DNA of 25,007 nt from a virus: positions 1-25,007 of IMG/VR virus record IMGVR_UViG_3300031999_000178, one strand, 5' to 3'. How positions within the stretch are numbered: position 1 is the stretch's first letter; each line of letters begins with the position of its first letter. This document shows positions 1,387 to 23,706 of this stretch, piece by piece. Under the pieces are notes generated by a model. The model saw only the letters and a program-made list of their open reading frames with translations, ran no database searches and had not been told where the DNA came from. The translations under genes and the position numbers were made by a program.

Positions 1387-2184
1387 ATGAATTTAGAAAC
1401 AACAGAAAAACTAAACCAAGCTAATGAAGATGGTTTAGAATTATTAAGAAGAAAAATCATTAACGAAGATGATATAAATTTATTTATAGAATATGTAATT
1501 AAAGACGAAAAACATGGAGCAAAGATAAAACAAGATATAATTCATCTTGCCATGCAAGAACATATTGATTATTGTTTTTCTCATAATATACTTTGCGGAA
1601 TTTTAGCTCCTTGGGGTCATGGAAAAACTGGACAAATAATCGCTCGTGCATTACATATTTTAGGAAAAAATACTAATACAAGAATTAAAATTTTATGTAA
1701 TAATGATTCAACAGCAAAAGCACGTTTAAAGGTTATTGGTCAATATGTAGAAAAAGACAAAGATTTTCACCGTATTTTTCCTTTATGCGTTCCTGAAAAT
1801 AGGGAAAGATGGAATGCTCACGAATTAATAGTTAAGAGAGAAACAATTTCAAAAGATGCTTCCGTCCAATCGTATGGAGTTTTATCTAGTGGTATAGGTG
1901 GCCGCACAGACCTTTTACTAGCAGATGATGTAATGGATATGAGAAATTGTATCTTACAACCAAAGCTAAAAGGACAAATAATAGATACTTTTTTCAACAC
2001 TTGGCTTAGTAGGGCTGATGGTATTGATTTTAAAGTTATATACATTGCTACTATATGGACTGAGGATGATTTAAGTTCACAATTAATTAAAAATCCTGCT
2101 TTTTCATTCCTTGTCATGGGAATTAATAATAATCTGAACGGAATTACTTGTCGTTATTATAATCGTTCAATTAGTTTAAATTAA
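1387..2184 (+). CDS. terL: Terminase large subunit, N-terminal ATPase part
   Basis: This 265-residue protein is the motor (ATPase) half of the DNA-packaging terminase, which pumps phage DNA into the prohead at the portal. It has a Walker A motif APWGHGKT at residues 74-81, a Walker B LLLADD at about 176-181, and the coupling motif ATIWTEDD at about 221-228. Large terminases usually have about 400-600 residues with a nuclease domain after the ATPase. Here the frame stops with TAA shortly after the ATPase ends, and the nuclease is a separate gene at 3916-4653. The last 25 residues may be the natural linker. Both halves keep their key motifs, so this looks like a functional split rather than decay, though that is inference. 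Confidence 0.85.
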   Translation: MNLETTEKLNQANEDGLELLRRKIINEDDINLFIEYVIKDEKHGAKIKQDIIHLAMQEHIDYCFSHNILCGILAPWGHGKTGQIIARALHILGKNTNTRIKILCNNDSTAKARLKVIGQYVEKDKDFHRIFPLCVPENRERWNAHELIVKRETISKDASVQSYGVLSSGIGGRTDLLLADDVMDMRNCILQPKLKGQIIDTFFNTWLSRADGIDFKVIYIATIWTEDDLSSQLIKNPAFSFLVMGINNNLNGITCRYYNRSISLN

Positions 2185-2208
2185 AACAGAAAAAGGTAAA
2201 TTAAAAAA

Positions 2209-2598
2209 ATGATTGATATTTTAACATCAGTAGACGAAATAAAATATTTTACTATAGCAGATAAAATACTAATTGAATCAGCAAATTTAAAATTGGTAAA
2301 TGATATTATTGCTGATGATGAAAATTATTATTCTATTTCTGTTATAGTTGATAAAGATAGTGATGGTGAAAAAGAGATAATTAATATTGTCCTTAATGAA
2401 AATATTAATATAAATGAAAGAGAACATGATAATTCAATTATTGATTTTGATTTAACAAGTTTTTATGATGAATCTTATCCTTTTATGCAATGCTATGTAA
2501 ATTTATATTTTAATATAACCAAAACAGGAACTCCATCTGGATTAGAAAATTCTATTTTTTATTTTAAACAATTTACAAAATGTATTCCAGAAGTATAA
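2209..2598 (+). CDS. Hypothetical protein inside split terminase, beta-rich type 1
   Basis: I do not recognise this 129-residue protein. It is the first of four genes between the terminase ATPase and nuclease genes, with its own ribosome binding site (AAAAAGG, about 2189-2194). It has no membrane segment or signal peptide and is rich in alternating hydrophobic residues that suggest beta strands. A segment at about residues 40-58 (YYSISVIVDKDSDGEKEI) resembles residues 49-64 of the protein at 3058-3444 (YTCLSVIDKGADGLGN). Both have similar total length and a hydrophobic-Lys pattern near the C-terminus, so the two may be distant paralogs. A small virion or decoration protein is possible but unsupported. 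Confidence 0.55.
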   Translation: MIDILTSVDEIKYFTIADKILIESANLKLVNDIIADDENYYSISVIVDKDSDGEKEIINIVLNENININEREHDNSIIDFDLTSFYDESYPFMQCYVNLYFNITKTGTPSGLENSIFYFKQFTKCIPEV

Positions 2599-2629
2599 TG
2601 GAAATTAAAAAAAGATTGGATTTTTAAAA

Positions 2630-3037
2630 ATGTCATTAAAAAAAATAATTGATAATATACATGGAATTGAACTTGATTTCGGACCAGGAAATTATTTAGA
2701 ATTTAAATATATGTTTTATTCTGAATCTTGTAGAATTTTAAATATGTTTGTTATTCCAACAAAAGATGTAGGATTAAGTAATGATGATTATTTTGTTGCT
2801 GAAATTTATAATATTGGTTTTAATAATGAAAAACAAATTTTAGTAGCAAGATTTACAAACAAAACAAATGATGTTAATGGATTAGTCTTAAATAAGTTTA
2901 AAGCAAATTTAATTAATATTTTCCATAATATTATTGGTAAAGGAGAATTTATTAAATTGGTTATTAAAAGTTATGCTCCAATTAATAATATTAATCTTGG
3001 ATATTTAAATCATATCAGCGAAATTGAATCACTATAA
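2630..3037 (+). CDS. Hypothetical protein inside split terminase, beta-rich type 2
   Basis: This 135-residue protein is unrecognised. Its layout parallels the genes on either side: a hydrophobic N-terminal half, then a KDVG...DYFVAEIYNIG segment at about residues 45-64, then a C-terminal half of alternating hydrophobic residues. KDV followed by an aromatic strand and a glycine turn also occurs in the next gene (KDVPDSN...LYTCLSV), which hints at a shared beta fold. There is no transmembrane segment, cysteine cluster or nuclease motif. In particular it lacks the HNH or GIY-YIG motifs that would mark a homing endonuclease in an intron. A GGA about 9 bases before the ATG is the only ribosome-binding signal. 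Confidence 0.5.
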   Translation: MSLKKIIDNIHGIELDFGPGNYLEFKYMFYSESCRILNMFVIPTKDVGLSNDDYFVAEIYNIGFNNEKQILVARFTNKTNDVNGLVLNKFKANLINIFHNIIGKGEFIKLVIKSYAPINNINLGYLNHISEIESL

Positions 3038-3057
3038 AAAAAAGGAGTTTAAATAAA

Positions 3058-3444
3058 ATGTCATTATTAAGAGCATTTGATTATGCTGTCATATTATTAT
3101 CTGGTAATATTGAATTACCAATTTATTTATGTATCGAAAATGCAATTATAGAAAAATTGATTTTTTCCCATGAAAAAGATGTTCCTGATTCTAATGTATT
3201 ATATACGTGTTTAAGCGTTATTGATAAAGGCGCTGATGGTCTTGGGAATACTGAATTAGATTATATAACCAATAATCCAGATGATGAAGAACATTATTTA
3301 GCATTTACTCCATATACTATTCATGAAATTTTACTTAACGTTCCTGTTGTAAAAAATCATGTTTACTCATTTAAAAAAGTTGATACTGGTGGTAATGTTG
3401 ATTTAGGTTTTTCTGCTTGTGTTGTTAATGAAAGGAGATATTAA
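3058..3444 (+). CDS. Hypothetical protein inside split terminase, beta-rich type 3
   Basis: This 128-residue protein is the third of the inserted genes. It is preceded by a strong AAAAGGAG and the TTTAAATAAAATG leader used by several genes here. The segment YTCLSVIDKGADGLGNTEL (about residues 49-67) has the look of a strand-turn-strand with a possible Asp-rich loop, like its possible paralog at 2209-2598. The region VYSFKKVDTGGNVDLGF near the C-terminus suggests a beta hairpin. No enzyme motif is visible. Its strong translation signal and place in the late operon favour a structural or assembly role, but the function is unknown. Confidence 0.55.
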   Translation: MSLLRAFDYAVILLSGNIELPIYLCIENAIIEKLIFSHEKDVPDSNVLYTCLSVIDKGADGLGNTELDYITNNPDDEEHYLAFTPYTIHEILLNVPVVKNHVYSFKKVDTGGNVDLGFSACVVNERRY

Positions 3445-3449
3445 ATAAA

Positions 3450-3911
3450 ATGGGAGAACCTATTTTAAATAGTAAAGAAAAAGAAGAATTAATTGAAATA
3501 ATTCAAAATAAAATATTACCTTTAATAGAAGATTCTGTATTTAATAGTTTTACAAAAAACTTTACATTATATGGTAAAGATTTATCATGTAAACTTAGAA
3601 TGATTGCTTGTCAAAAAGTAATTCAATTTAATAATTTAAATGATTATGATTGTAAATTATGCTGGTTTAATTGGTTTATTAATGAATATAAAATTATAAA
3701 TGATGATGAAGGAAAAAATGTTGCATCAAATATAAATTTTAATATAAAAAATGATGATATTAAATTATTATTTAATAATAAAAATGTTAATGAAATAAAA
3801 AAACGCGATAGTTATAAATGTTATACATTACTATTTAAATCAATAAATGATAAAAATAAAAAACAATTTATTAATACATTTAATGCTATGATAGATTATT
3901 TGAAGAAATAA
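3450..3911 (+). CDS. Hypothetical helical protein inside split terminase
   Basis: This 153-residue protein is unrecognised and differs from the three genes before it. It looks mostly helical and is rich in Lys, Asn and Asp, with cysteines at C-x-L-C-W spacing near residues 69-72. It has no membrane segment. AAAGGAG lies about 11 bases before the ATG, and the gene starts only 5 bases after the preceding stop. It ends 4 bases before the terminase nuclease gene, which has no clear ribosome binding site of its own, so translation of the nuclease may be coupled to this gene. Confidence 0.5.
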   Translation: MGEPILNSKEKEELIEIIQNKILPLIEDSVFNSFTKNFTLYGKDLSCKLRMIACQKVIQFNNLNDYDCKLCWFNWFINEYKIINDDEGKNVASNINFNIKNDDIKLLFNNKNVNEIKKRDSYKCYTLLFKSINDKNKKQFINTFNAMIDYLKK

Positions 3912-3915
3912 AAAA

Positions 3916-4653
3916 ATGCAAATAAATGTAATAGAAATCCCTTTGTGGAGACCAAAATGGGACGAAGAAGCATTAATAAAACATTTAGAAAGAGTAGGGA
4001 ATATAGCATTTAATAGGGGATTAAGAAATATTGCATTGTCAAGTAAGGATAGTACATTTCCATCATTCGATAAATGTATTCAAATCAAAACAAAATTTGA
4101 AGATGTAATTAATTCTGATTGTATATATTATTCTGGAGTAGATTTAAGCACGAAAAAAAGACCAGGAACTTGTATTTTTACATTAGCATTAGATAGAAAA
4201 AATAAAATATATATACCAGTAGATATTAGATATGGAAAATGGACTGGACCAAAATTGCTTGAGCAGATTTATTTAGTTCAAGAAGCATATTCACCTAAAT
4301 CTTTTCTTGTCGAAAATAATGCTTTACAAGATATGGTAATTGATTTTTTAAAAGATGATGCAAAGAAAAAAAATCATTTATCAACACCATTTATAAAAGG
4401 ATTTTTTACTGGATCAAACAAACTTGATTTAGATAATGGTGTTAATGCTTTGGAAGTTGATTTTTATAATGAAAGATGGATAATAGCAATGGGAAATAGA
4501 GAGCATAAATTAAATTGTAAATGCGGTTTTTGTAAATTCAAAGACGAAATTAATGGTCATCCTTTTTTTGAAACAACCGATACAATAATGGCTTGCTGGT
4601 TAGCTAAAGAAAATGCAAGAAAATCTGTTTCTGGAAGAATAAGAGTATTATAA
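3916..4653 (+). CDS. terL: Terminase large subunit, C-terminal nuclease part
   Basis: This 245-residue protein is the RNase H-like nuclease half of the terminase that cuts DNA at the start and end of packaging. The likely metal-binding acidic residues are D76 in SGVDLS, E133 in LVENNA and D222 in ETTDTIMACWLA. The N-terminus (IEIPLWRPKWDEEAL) matches the linker that normally follows the ATPase domain in one polypeptide. A cysteine cluster at 201-206 (CKCGFC), with H197 just before it, could bind zinc. An in-frame TGA at 3901-3903 limits the start, and ATG at 3916 is the first option. It presumably works with the ATPase protein encoded 1.7 kb upstream, which is inference. Confidence 0.85.
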   Translation: MQINVIEIPLWRPKWDEEALIKHLERVGNIAFNRGLRNIALSSKDSTFPSFDKCIQIKTKFEDVINSDCIYYSGVDLSTKKRPGTCIFTLALDRKNKIYIPVDIRYGKWTGPKLLEQIYLVQEAYSPKSFLVENNALQDMVIDFLKDDAKKKNHLSTPFIKGFFTGSNKLDLDNGVNALEVDFYNERWIIAMGNREHKLNCKCGFCKFKDEINGHPFFETTDTIMACWLAKENARKSVSGRIRVL

Positions 4654-4654
4654 A

Positions 4655-4894
4655 ATGAATATTTTCTTAACAATATTAATTTTAGTTTTATTTTTTATAT
4701 ACTCTTCTTTTTGTTCTATCTTAACTTTAAAGATAGGAAATTTAACAGTTAATGAAAAAGAAAAACCATCATTTATATTTTTATTCATTTATCTTTATGG
4801 TAAAATATTTATTATTATTTTTCCTATTTTATGTATTGTATATTTTATTATTAATATTTTATCATTCATTATTCAATTAATTAAAATCCAATAA
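4655..4894 (+). CDS. Small membrane protein between terminase and portal
   Basis: This 79-residue protein is extremely hydrophobic, with transmembrane segments at about residues 3-24 and 42-72. The second stretch is long enough to form two passes. A short charged loop (NEKEKP) lies between them. The ATG is one base after the terminase stop, so translation is probably coupled. I do not recognise the family. A membrane protein between terminase and portal is unusual, and it could be a moron acting on the host envelope, but nothing in the sequence shows this. Confidence 0.5.
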   Translation: MNIFLTILILVLFFIYSSFCSILTLKIGNLTVNEKEKPSFIFLFIYLYGKIFIIIFPILCIVYFIINILSFIIQLIKIQ

Positions 4895-4910: not shown

Positions 4911-7187
4911 ATGCCCACAATTTTAGATGAAATTATAAATAAAAATTTTCCACAAAATAAAGATAGTTTTATTCAATCTAGTGGTAAATCTAAAAATGCA
5001 AACATGGCATTATTAGAAAAAGATTCTATAGCATTTGCTAGTGGTGATTTTTTTAAAAATGCCTCTCCTGTTGAAGATAAAACTTTATTAGATTCTATTG
5101 AAGCTAATGCTTGGGTATATGCTGGTATTTATAAACTTGCAACTTCTGTAGCTAGTGTTCCTTTTCGCATATATTATCTTTTAGAAGATGGTTCATTGAA
5201 TGAAATTACATATGAACCTGAATTTAAAGTTTTTAGAAATCCTAATCAATGGTTTACAAGGTTTGATTTTTGGGAAGCTACAACCATTTATCTTGAAGCT
5301 ACCGGTAAATGTTTTTGGGAATTAGTAAAAAATGATCAAGGTTTAGTTTATGAAATGTATGCTTTAAATCCTTCAAGAATGGAACCAATTAAAGACCGTA
5401 AAAAATTTATTATAGGATGGAAATATACTTTAGATAGTGGAAAAACAATTACTTATAATGTTGAAGATATAGTTTTTTTAAGATATTTTCATCCAACTAA
5501 TCCTTATTCTGGATTATCTGCTCTAAAAGTAGGTTCAACATCTATTACAATTGATATATATTCACAACAATATTCTCTAGGATTTTTTAAAAATTCTGGT
5601 CGTCCAGATGGATTATTAATTTATGATTCTGAATTATCCGATGAAGATTACGATAGAATAAGAAGAAATTGGAATAAAACACATGAAGGAATAAGTAAAG
5701 CACATAGAATAGCAATTATCGAGCAAGGAATGAATTATAAACAAATTAGCATTCCACAAAAAGATATGGAATTTATTAATCAAAGAAAATACAGTAGGGA
5801 TGAAATTTTAGCTTGTTTCGGTGTTCCTCCTGCTTGTGTCGGAGTATTTGAAAGCGCAATTAAGGCTAATGCTGAAACGCAGGAAAGAATGTTCTGGACA
5901 GAAACAATGATTCCTAAATTAATAAAAATGTCTGAATCTGTTCAATTAGCAATTATGCCGATGATTTTGTCATCTTCCGAAACAAGAAGTAAATATGATA
6001 TTAATAAAATATATACAATGTTTGATATTTCTAAAGTTCATGTATTAAGTGAAATTTGGCGTGCAAGGGAAGCATATCTTGTTGAACATGTTAAAAATGG
6101 AACAATGAGCAGAAATGAAGCAAGAATTATTTTAAATTATATTTATGGTGATATTATTAAATTCCTTCCATTTGAAGGTGGTAATGATATTTATGTTCCA
6201 TCTAATGTTACTCAAAAATTGGGAACAATAGAACCTACACAATCAGAAGAAGCAAAAATATTTAAAAGTATTGATAGTGTTAAACTCGAACAAAAAATAA
6301 AAGAATTAAAAGCATTACCAGAAAAAGAAAGAAAACCTTTAAAGTTAATTAAACAAATTGAAGAAAATATAGGTGGAAATATTAATTTTGATATGAATAA
6401 TCCAATTGCTATACAAGTATTAAATACTAAACCAATGTTAATTGTAGCAAGTCAAATGAATAATGAGATAATAAGAAATATTATTACTTATGGATTAGCT
6501 AAAGGATTAGGAACAAAAGAAATTCAAGCGGAAATATGGGATAGGTTTTCAAGTTCTTCTGAATTTTCACTTAATAGAACAAATACAATTGGAAGAACAG
6601 AAATAACACAAATTGCCAACTCATCAACTTTAGATTCATATAAACAATCAAATGTAATATCAAAAAAAATATGGTTAACAAGCAGAGATAAAAAAGTTAG
6701 ACCAGCAACTAAATTTGATAAAGGTGATCATAAAAAACTTGATGGGGAAGAAAAAAATTTAAATGAAAAATTTTCTAATGGTTTAATGTATCCAGGAGAA
6801 CAAACAAGTAGGCCGGAAGAAAATATTAATTGTAGATGTACTATGCTTTCCAAAATAAAAGAAGGTGTTGGATTTAAAGGAAAGATAAATAAATTATTAT
6901 CTGATGATAATGAAATTATGAAAACTATTTTATGGAAAAAATATATTGGAAAGATTAGCAACAATGAAATTATAATTAAAAATTTATTTTTACAAATGTT
7001 TGAAGAAATAGGAAGTAAATCAATAGAAAAATTAAAGAAGTTTACTCCAAATAAAAATAATGTTGATTTATTTTTAATTGATCAAACAGAACAAGTTGAA
7101 GAAATGGAAAAACTTTATAAACCATTAAAAGAAAGTTTATATAAAGATTTAGGTAGTTATGAATTAAAACAAATTATAGGAGATTAA
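4911..7187 (+). CDS. Portal protein fused to MuF-like head morphogenesis domain
   Basis: This 758-residue protein combines two functions usually found in separate genes. Residues about 60-430 match the HK97-type portal, which forms the dodecameric ring through which DNA enters the head. The typical segment ILACFGVPPACVGVFESA lies at about 297-314. Residues about 500-650 resemble the Mu gpF (MuF) minor head protein domain, with the motif NCRC near 639 and the GRTEITQIAN...TSRDKKVRP region before it. The last 100 residues are Lys/Glu-rich, helical and unassigned. Portal-MuF fusions are known in other phages, but the tail resembles no effector domain I recognise. The gene has a GGA and the AAATAAAATG leader, and precedes the protease by 6 bases. 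Confidence 0.85.
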   Translation: MPTILDEIINKNFPQNKDSFIQSSGKSKNANMALLEKDSIAFASGDFFKNASPVEDKTLLDSIEANAWVYAGIYKLATSVASVPFRIYYLLEDGSLNEITYEPEFKVFRNPNQWFTRFDFWEATTIYLEATGKCFWELVKNDQGLVYEMYALNPSRMEPIKDRKKFIIGWKYTLDSGKTITYNVEDIVFLRYFHPTNPYSGLSALKVGSTSITIDIYSQQYSLGFFKNSGRPDGLLIYDSELSDEDYDRIRRNWNKTHEGISKAHRIAIIEQGMNYKQISIPQKDMEFINQRKYSRDEILACFGVPPACVGVFESAIKANAETQERMFWTETMIPKLIKMSESVQLAIMPMILSSSETRSKYDINKIYTMFDISKVHVLSEIWRAREAYLVEHVKNGTMSRNEARIILNYIYGDIIKFLPFEGGNDIYVPSNVTQKLGTIEPTQSEEAKIFKSIDSVKLEQKIKELKALPEKERKPLKLIKQIEENIGGNINFDMNNPIAIQVLNTKPMLIVASQMNNEIIRNIITYGLAKGLGTKEIQAEIWDRFSSSSEFSLNRTNTIGRTEITQIANSSTLDSYKQSNVISKKIWLTSRDKKVRPATKFDKGDHKKLDGEEKNLNEKFSNGLMYPGEQTSRPEENINCRCTMLSKIKEGVGFKGKINKLLSDDNEIMKTILWKKYIGKISNNEIIIKNLFLQMFEEIGSKSIEKLKKFTPNKNNVDLFLIDQTEQVEEMEKLYKPLKESLYKDLGSYELKQIIGD

Positions 7188-7193
7188 AAAATT

Positions 7194-8132
7194 ATGCCTA
7201 AAATTAATGAACCATCAACAACTAAAAAGCCAAGTGAAATACAATCTGTTATTTTTGATATAAAATTATGGGATGAATCGAAAGCTAAAAAATGGTTAAA
7301 TGATAATGATTTTTCTGGATTAATTGCAGATACCGAAAGTAATGGTGATTATATTAGATTTAGACAACACAATCCAAATAGATATAAAAATTTTAAAACT
7401 ATTGAAAGCGGAAAAGATGGAATTAAATTTATATTAGGATTTACAAAATTTAAAAAACAAATTAATGATATTATTAATGAAAATGAAAATAAAACAAATG
7501 ATTATAATGTTGATTTTGATGCTATTAGATTATATTGTGAAAAACAATTAATAGAAAATGATATAACAGAAACAATTATTTTCTTAATTGAAAATTATAA
7601 TAAACATGAATGGATACAAATATCACAATTATTAAGCAGAGTATTTCATGATGTTGATTATAAATTACAAGATGAATTAAGTAAAATTAGATTTGCTAAA
7701 AAAGCAAAAGAAAAAGCAAAAGAAACAAAACAAGAAAATATTAAAGATAATAGGTCTGTTAGTTTATTAAAAAATTCTATGGATAATGAAAAAAGATTAG
7801 TTTATGGAGTAGTTATTGAACCTAAATTAATTGATACTGATAATGATTGGACAGATGAAAAAGAGATAGAAAATGCTTGTCATATGTTTATGAAATATTT
7901 TCAAGAATCTGGTATAGATCATGAATTTGTTGTTGAAAAAGGTTTAAAAATTGTAGAAAATTATATAGCACAATCTAATTTTAATATTAATGGAGTAGTT
8001 ATAAAAAAAGGTAGTTGGATAATGGTTCATTATGTTGAAAATGATGAAATATGGGAAAGAATAAAAAATGGTGATTTAAATGGTTATTCTTTTGAAGGTT
8101 TAGGAATGTATGTAAATCAAAAACCTAATTAA
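7194..8132 (+). CDS. Prohead maturation protease, XkdF-like
   Basis: This 312-residue protein probably cleaves scaffold and other head proteins during capsid maturation. Residues about 200-307 match the XkdF-type phage serine protease domain: RLVYGVVIEP near the start, then IDHEFVV (H243 as candidate catalytic His), the KKGSWIMVHYVENDEIWERI block, and GYSFEG (S299 as candidate nucleophile). The N-terminus (residues about 16-82) matches a region seen in other phage head proteins: IFDIKLWDESKAKKWL followed by RFRQHNP and the FKTIESGKDGIKFILG stretch. A charged linker at 165-200 joins the two. The gene lies between portal and scaffold, as expected. Catalytic assignments come from family knowledge and were not tested. 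Confidence 0.8.
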   Translation: MPKINEPSTTKKPSEIQSVIFDIKLWDESKAKKWLNDNDFSGLIADTESNGDYIRFRQHNPNRYKNFKTIESGKDGIKFILGFTKFKKQINDIINENENKTNDYNVDFDAIRLYCEKQLIENDITETIIFLIENYNKHEWIQISQLLSRVFHDVDYKLQDELSKIRFAKKAKEKAKETKQENIKDNRSVSLLKNSMDNEKRLVYGVVIEPKLIDTDNDWTDEKEIENACHMFMKYFQESGIDHEFVVEKGLKIVENYIAQSNFNINGVVIKKGSWIMVHYVENDEIWERIKNGDLNGYSFEGLGMYVNQKPN

Positions 8133-22158: not shown

Positions 22159-23706
22159 ATGCTTATTTTACCAGAAAAAACTAAAGATTCATTTAATAAT
22201 GAGAATATTGGAAAATATTTTTTAATTATTATAAAATTTCCAAATGAATATAAATTTTATTCTCATAATAATATTATTATTTATAATCCAATTAAAGATA
22301 CATGGTATAATTTTTTAGGTTCATTAACTAGTGAAATTCAATTTTCTACTGGTTTTAAATCTAAAGATAATTCTGTTAGAATCCCATCAATTAATATTTC
22401 AATTGTTGATAATATTGATTTATTTGATATGACAAAACTATATGAAATAAATTTTTCTGAAATAAGTTTATATTTATCAACAGAAGATTTAAATTTAAAT
22501 GAAGCATTACCTTTATTTAAAGGTGTTATTGGAATTAATGAAATTGATTTAGTTGGAAATCCATTTAGTGTTTCATTTACTAATATTGATTATAAGTATG
22601 ACAAAATTTTTCCACCATTAGTTTTAGAAAAAACAAATCCAATTTTTTATTTATATAATGATGCTGAAAAATATATAGGTGAATATATTCCAATTATATT
22701 TGGTAAGATAGAATATCCAGGATGTCCTATTCCTATGATTTATGATAGTACAACAATAAGACAATATGCTATTTGTAATCATTATCCAATAACTTCTGTT
22801 TCTATTTATTCTGATGGTATTCTTGTTCCTGTAATAGCATATTCTTTAGGTCAAACATGGAGCGAAAAATATGGTTATATTTCACTTATTAGTATTGTAA
22901 ATAATTCTTATTATATATCATATTTTAAAAATAAAAAAATTACTGCTACTTGTGATGGTTTACTTTATAATTCACCTAATAATCCATCTATAGGTGATAT
23001 TATTTTATATATGTTACAAAATTATTCAAATTTATCTTCTGATTTAATTGATTTACAAGGAATATATATAAACAAGGCTTATCTTTCATCTTTTAAAGTA
23101 TCAAGATTTTTTAATTCATCTTCAACTATTTTTGATACAATAAAAGAATTAACTTCTGAATTTCCTTTTTTTATTAATACAAGAGGTTTTACTAAATCTA
23201 TTGTTTGTACTGATCCATTAAATATTCCTTATACTTTTGTAATGCAAAAATATAAACATTATTTAGAAAGAGTAAAAGGAATAGCAATTACTAAACATAC
23301 TGAATTATATAATAAATTTTCTGTAAGATATAAATATGACGCTTTAAATAATAGATGGTTAGGTTATGATTATTTAGATTCATCTAATAATAATGATTGT
23401 TTAGTTTTGCAAGTGAAATTAGGTGGTTTGATAAAAGAAAAAGAACCATTGGATTTATACTCTGTTTCTGATGCAACTACAGCAAGAAACATTTTAAATT
23501 ATTTAACTAAAATCTACTGTTTTAATAGATATAGCATAACTTATAAATGTAAACATAATACAATTTTCCTCGAAATAGGTGATGGGATTTTATTAATTGA
23601 TGAAGAATTAAATTTTAATAGGGAAAAATTTGTTGTTGTTGATAAAACAATAGGAAGGGATTTTATTTATTTTACTTTAGAAAATACTGAAAGAATAGGT
23701 ATTTAA
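22159..23706 (+). CDS. Tail hub / tail-associated protein
   Basis: This 515-residue protein is probably the central hub of the tail tip, which closes the tube and contacts the adsorption protein before it. The N-terminal half has the pattern TGFKSKDNSVRIPSINISI (about residues 71-89). It is followed by EYIPIIFGKIEYPGCPIPMI (about 175-194), a type of block often seen in phage hub proteins. The region TIKELTSEFPFFINTRGF (about 329-346) is typical of the gp27-like domain that follows. No lysozyme or peptidase motif is present. The start has only a poor ribosome-binding signal. Assignment is by order and general pattern. Confidence 0.6.
   Translation: MLILPEKTKDSFNNENIGKYFLIIIKFPNEYKFYSHNNIIIYNPIKDTWYNFLGSLTSEIQFSTGFKSKDNSVRIPSINISIVDNIDLFDMTKLYEINFSEISLYLSTEDLNLNEALPLFKGVIGINEIDLVGNPFSVSFTNIDYKYDKIFPPLVLEKTNPIFYLYNDAEKYIGEYIPIIFGKIEYPGCPIPMIYDSTTIRQYAICNHYPITSVSIYSDGILVPVIAYSLGQTWSEKYGYISLISIVNNSYYISYFKNKKITATCDGLLYNSPNNPSIGDIILYMLQNYSNLSSDLIDLQGIYINKAYLSSFKVSRFFNSSSTIFDTIKELTSEFPFFINTRGFTKSIVCTDPLNIPYTFVMQKYKHYLERVKGIAITKHTELYNKFSVRYKYDALNNRWLGYDYLDSSNNNDCLVLQVKLGGLIKEKEPLDLYSVSDATTARNILNYLTKIYCFNRYSITYKCKHNTIFLEIGDGILLIDEELNFNREKFVVVDKTIGRDFIYFTLENTERIGI

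Follow-up and report, generated by a model that had tools for sequence, protein, structure and literature searches.

Few proteins of tailed viruses are as strongly conserved as the large terminase subunit (TerL), which is generally regarded as a single protein of two domains. The stretch of uncultured phage DNA analyzed here (hereinafter the window; IMGVR_UViG_3300031999_000178, positions 1-25,007) raises the question of whether a TerL might instead operate as two separately encoded chains. Between positions 1387 and 4653 it carries six ORFs, all on the + strand, and an initial sequence-only reading, with whose coordinates an ORF check of the window agrees, described them as a large terminase encoded by two genes with four others between. 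In order, they are the ATPase half (265 aa, 1387-2184), o2 (129 aa, 2209-2598), o3 (135 aa, 2630-3037), o4 (128 aa, 3058-3444), o5 (153 aa, with a Cys-rich motif, 3450-3911) and the nuclease half (245 aa, 3916-4653), separated by gaps of 24, 31, 20, 5 and 4 bp. The ATPase half, the inserted cassette and the nuclease half are collinear with a downstream gene on the same strand for a portal fused to a Mu F-like head protein domain (4911-7187; Phage_portal E 1e-71, Phage_Mu_F E 1.5e-12). Upstream, also on the + strand, lies a probable terminase small subunit (TerS; 180-854), with a weak match to phrog_2538 (E 0.04) and a position ahead of TerL that is conserved in two relatives, L003 and L004. 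Between this gene and the ATPase half, positions 872-1306 are occupied by about 44 tandem copies of the 10-bp unit TATAATTAAA.

The terminase assignment of the two halves comes from PHROGs, fold comparison and homologues; neither half of the window reaches threshold in Pfam. The terminase profile phrog_38 matches both, the ATPase half across its positions 271-470 (E 4e-22) and the nuclease half across positions 485-646 (E 2e-10), with about 14 profile positions left unmatched between them. Because these stretches are consecutive, the two ORFs together make up one TerL. Further, the ATPase half matches the T7-type TerL model NF033889 at E 4e-13, which is below that model's curated cut-off, and a PDB search with its profile recovered the PhiV-1 terminase and a DNA maturase B. 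The corresponding PDB sequence search with the nuclease profile gave no match, but the fold search did: the predicted structure of the nuclease half (pLDDT 77, pTM 0.76) is RNase H-like and closest to the terminase nuclease domains of HSV pUL15 (4iox), HCMV (3n4p), PhiV-1 (8dgc), P22 (4dkw), RB49 (3c6h), SPP1 (2wc9) and G20c.

Inspection of the alignments shows that motif and catalytic residues are kept on both sides of the break. The ATPase half contains a Walker A motif GHGKT and a Walker B motif LLADD, of which the GK and the DD are invariant across the ATPase alignments, and the nuclease triad D76, E133 and D222 is invariant in all 15 homologues of an alignment that leaves out L005 and includes both split and unsplit versions. 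Hence, the proposal that the ATPase half retains its Walker motifs and the nuclease half its three acidic residues is borne out. The nuclease half of the window additionally has a CxCxxC cluster (4516-4533, residues 201-206), which is shared by L021 and L022 and, in part, by L011 and L013, and might represent a metal site of this branch of TerLs.

A joint alignment with unsplit relatives places the break, and with it the insert, at the interdomain linker. The ATPase ORF ends within this linker, past the last element of the ATPase domain (...GITCRYYNRSISLN), and the nuclease ORF starts (MQINVIEIPLW) immediately ahead of P-L-W, the motif with which the nuclease part begins; the unsplit TerL of L024 reads ...HLIYEDSFGHKVRYPVW... 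across the corresponding region. Judged from this alignment, no recognizable portion of either domain is missing from the halves. The ATPase stop codon, TAA or TAG, falls at codon 265 or 266 in four genomes (the window, L003, L018 and L004), and the codons preceding it differ between L003 and L018 mostly by synonymous changes until the last three residues. The suggestions that the nuclease half begins with the expected linker, and that both halves have clean ends with their own stop and start, thus hold, the latter across all four genomes.

The same layout, with four ORFs between the halves, is present in L003, L018 and L004, which come from three other metagenome datasets (3300036766, 3300032046 and 3300035701). 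Identity to the window in the ATPase and nuclease halves is 81 and 80% for L003 and 72 and 70% for L004; the L018 contig begins inside the ATPase, and its nuclease half is 79% identical. A further record with this layout, L002, is nearly identical to the window (99.8% over 8.2 kb). The dN/dS values are about 0.10-0.11 for the ATPase half, rough ratios on account of dS being near saturation, and 0.12-0.27 for the nuclease half; they are comparable to the 0.10-0.30 of the portal and indicate purifying selection on each half. The records of L002 (42.3 kb) and L003 (41.6 kb), which are possibly incomplete, each contain a single match to the ATPase and a single match to the nuclease, and neither yielded a full-length terL. 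Beyond this group, neither half of the window matches any of 50,697 phage records of named isolates by tblastn, a search of genome contigs for relatives of the nuclease half found none, and a viral scan with a wider ATPase alignment yielded no additional relatives.

These observations bear on two rival readings of the arrangement. Short-read metagenomes can yield chimeric contigs, and two unrelated pieces might have been joined by misassembly; however, the arrangement is repeated on contigs of several metagenome datasets at 70-100% identity, and assembly error, which the sequence-only reading had named as grounds for rejection, is effectively refuted. Alternatively, the TerL might be broken and decaying in a defective or helper-dependent phage, a view to which the existence of the lineage solely as metagenomic contigs, without a cultured isolate, lends some room. 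Against this, the frames are intact, the motifs conserved and purifying selection apparent in several divergent genomes, which leaves decay highly improbable. The recurrence of the split in relatives, the constant position of the stop, the selection on both halves and the failure to find on these records a full-length TerL, whose presence elsewhere in relatives had been held to count against a split, likewise make a recent insertion unlikely. In sum, the window encodes both a P-loop ATPase domain containing Walker A and B motifs and an RNase H-like nuclease domain whose three catalytic acidic residues are in place, but they lie in separate ORFs with a stop and start conserved in four genomes rather than in one polypeptide; the locus is therefore classed as a split variant and not as a canonical TerL.

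The genes between the halves present a very different pattern of conservation. Homologues of o3 and o4 are present in all four genomes, and those of o2 and o5 in the window, L003 and L018; in L004, where o5 was not found, two different small ORFs (4371-4748 and 4915-5322) stand in place of o2 and o5. Relative to the window, identity is 31-33% for o2 (L003, L018), 37-45% for o3 (L018, L003, L004), 48-68% for o4 (L004, L003, L018) and 37-38% for o5 (L018, L003). The contrast is sharpest between L003 and L018, whose portals are 98% and nuclease halves 96% identical, whereas their cassette proteins share 36% (o2), 47% (o3), 62% (o5) and 67% (o4) identity. As dS is raised too, to 0.50-1.40 in the cassette genes versus 0.14-0.22 in their neighbors, the variability fits genes swapped by recombination for divergent versions better than rapid protein evolution by itself. 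Hypervariable as they are, the inserted genes resemble a cassette that can be exchanged. L018 has a DNA adenine methyltransferase-like ORF inserted after the nuclease half (2626-3396; PADLOC MTase_II, E 6e-31), which is absent from L003 despite the 98% identical portals.

No function is assigned to o2, o3 or o5: o2 and o5 have no match in Pfam, PHROG, PADLOC or NCBIfam, o3 matches no Pfam or PHROG family, and sequence searches of the PDB with o3 and o4 gave no convincing match. Family searches likewise returned nothing for o4. The AlphaFold model of o4 (pLDDT 80) is an all-beta sandwich of eight strands, for which a fold search returned generic beta-sandwich matches only. Comparison of o3 with o4 by hhalign gives a probability of 74%, pointing to o3 as a possible distant paralogue of o4. 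The small beta-sandwich protein predicted for o4 might perhaps be a virion component, though this is a guess. Downstream of the cassette, the nuclease ORF opens 4 nt past the o5 stop codon in the window and 0-6 nt past the stop of the preceding gene across the four genomes, a spacing which suggests that its translation is probably coupled to that gene.

An insert at this position could also be a self-splicing group I or II intron carrying the four ORFs, with TerL being a single protein after splicing. Introns are known to target terL, as in phD2B and in ICP1, for which RNA-seq and RT-PCR demonstrated splicing (PMC10448857). Several lines of evidence argue against this for the window. No Rfam family reaches the gathering threshold in the window, L003, L004 or L018, and nothing intron-like appears in positions 1900-4100 of the window at E values up to 5. 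The non-coding part of the insert amounts to 84 bp in the window, 39 bp in L003, 59 bp in L018 and 209 bp in L004, so a ribozyme core would need to overlap the ORFs in most of the four genomes. Further, the o2 genes of L003 and L018 do not align as DNA, even though the two contigs are 96% identical in the sequence that follows the nuclease; an intron core should be conserved and is thus not expected there. Pfam and PHROGs detect no homing endonuclease domain in the four inserted ORFs, in keeping with their earlier description as well-formed ORFs other than a homing endonuclease, and in other phages the halves lie 15 kb apart. An intron between the halves of the window is hence unlikely, with a small probability left for a core that overlaps coding sequence. 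Additionally, Pfam detects no in-frame Hint/intein domain in the halves of the window, though L009 has one.

The ATPase and nuclease domains are accordingly intact, under selection and separately encoded. We place a probability of roughly 0.83 on the phage using a two-polypeptide large terminase, given the consecutive profile match, the kept motifs, the conserved split, the selection on both halves, the break at the linker and the searches that returned neither another terL nor an intron signal. That the two chains work together as a terminase is what we infer from sequence, and in this sense the comparative data support the original proposal of a two-protein terminase with a gene cargo at the domain boundary. 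To that proposal they add a split that is conserved within the lineage, splits at the same linker elsewhere, and a cargo that is hypervariable and partly interchangeable. Mechanistically, the two chains would meet non-covalently at the portal, either via the usual ATPase-nuclease interface or via TerS, the portal or a cassette protein, with the ATPase translocating DNA and the nuclease cutting at initiation and at headful. The nuclease would be translated in coupling with the gene before it, and the insert would constitute a fast-changing, exchangeable accessory module inside the packaging operon.

In T4, the contact area between the two domains of gp17 exceeds 1000 square angstroms, yet once the hinge is gone the separated domains no longer translocate DNA, while retaining their activities (PMC9958956). 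As the T4 motor needs its hinge, a two-chain motor would need another form of coupling. This could come from a tighter interface or from a protein that bridges the chains, or else the nuclease would cut as a separate enzyme; the data do not discriminate among these possibilities. In the last case, the nuclease would be dissociable and the translocating ring would consist of the ATPase half alone, somewhat as in phi29. The freedom of the nuclease gene to lie close to the ATPase gene or as far as 15 kb from it, and the strict retention of the catalytic triad are consistent with such a cutter, whereas the dependence of T4 translocation on both domains within full-length gp17 (PMC9958956) speaks against it. 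It is a doubtful though not negligible prospect, and is a variant of the two-polypeptide explanation rather than its opposite.

The split terminase of the window may be compared with several known systems. Like the TerL described by phrog_38 and the T4 gp17 model, it has both domains, their motifs, the catalytic triad and a place next to TerS and the portal; unlike T4 gp17, in which the hinge is covalent and needed for translocation, it is encoded by two genes with four others between. In ICP1 (Gp129-128) and Lelliottia phage phD2B, terL likewise consists of two ORFs with other sequence between, but that of ICP1 is spliced (PMC10448857) and that of phD2B is inferred to be spliced, with a homing endonuclease gene between its ORFs; in the window there is no intron signal, the break falls at the domain linker and the cargo is ordinary small genes. 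Inteins, which also interrupt the gene with other sequence, occur in the TerL of cyanophage Mic1 and Caulobacter phage CcrColossus; however, these are spliced at the protein level within one frame, whereas the ORFs of the window have their own stops and starts. A further parallel is offered by jumbo phages, in which the DNA polymerase III alpha and RNA polymerase subunits are split, with domains of one enzyme made as separate proteins thought to reconstitute it (PMC7824862). These are nevertheless different enzymes, and in the same survey TerL figures as a single, universal protein of two domains (PMC7824862).

In the open-access literature searched, interrupted terL genes were found only as intron- or intein-containing genes. 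Phage annotations do at times name the TerL ATPase and the TerL nuclease as distinct genes, and a bare two-gene TerL is thus probably not unprecedented. A conserved split with a hypervariable cassette, the recurrence of splits at one site and a separation of 15 kb were not found described in that literature. A natural, selected two-chain terminase would make the role of the hinge testable, namely how ATP hydrolysis is coupled to a nuclease domain that is not tied to the ATPase, and would allow one to ask whether that domain is part of the translocating ring at all. Additionally, virome surveys that rely on TerL as their one marker gene may miss split TerLs or annotate only half of them.

TerL is also split at this linker in the more distant L010, L008, L009 and L021/L023. 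In trees, the unsplit TerLs of L024 and L007 interleave among split relatives, which suggests repeated splitting or re-fusion of TerL. On a tree of both halves, four state changes are required, of which strongly supported branches force at least two, and two earlier trees of each half show the same mixing of split and unsplit forms. A single clade of all split TerLs is rejected by an AU test (p 0.0086), a result to be read in light of the long branches of L024, DAC16 and Manuel and of the group having been tested after the earlier trees were seen. Bacteroides phage DAC16, reached via L008, has an unsplit TerL. Four separate splits, or a single split plus two fusions, may account for the history, which the long branches make uncertain. 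We lean modestly towards the broader view that tailed phages have repeatedly parted the motor ATPase from the nuclease, by as much as 15 kb, that a covalent hinge is not needed for packaging in nature, and that in the lineage of the window the gap has become a hot spot occupied by a hypervariable, exchangeable cassette.

The layouts of these distant versions differ considerably. In L010, the ATPase (5872-6786) and nuclease (6786-7685) ORFs abut without cargo, on one contig where a sequencing error is possible, and the nuclease has a long N-terminal extension. The extreme form of the split terminase is seen in two GC-rich phage contigs: in G007, the record behind L023, the ATPase (6716-7558) and nuclease (22840-23592) genes are 15.3 kb apart on the same strand, and in G005, the record behind L021, the ATPase (82742-83464) and nuclease (66618-67343) genes are about 15 kb apart, again on the same strand. 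In L008 (ATPase 536-2380, nuclease 3438-4199) and L009 (ATPase 44-1873, nuclease 2926-3681), a separate nuclease ORF lies about 1 kb downstream, and the ATPase half of both contains an intein right after the Walker A lysine, so that an intein and a split occur in one terminase.
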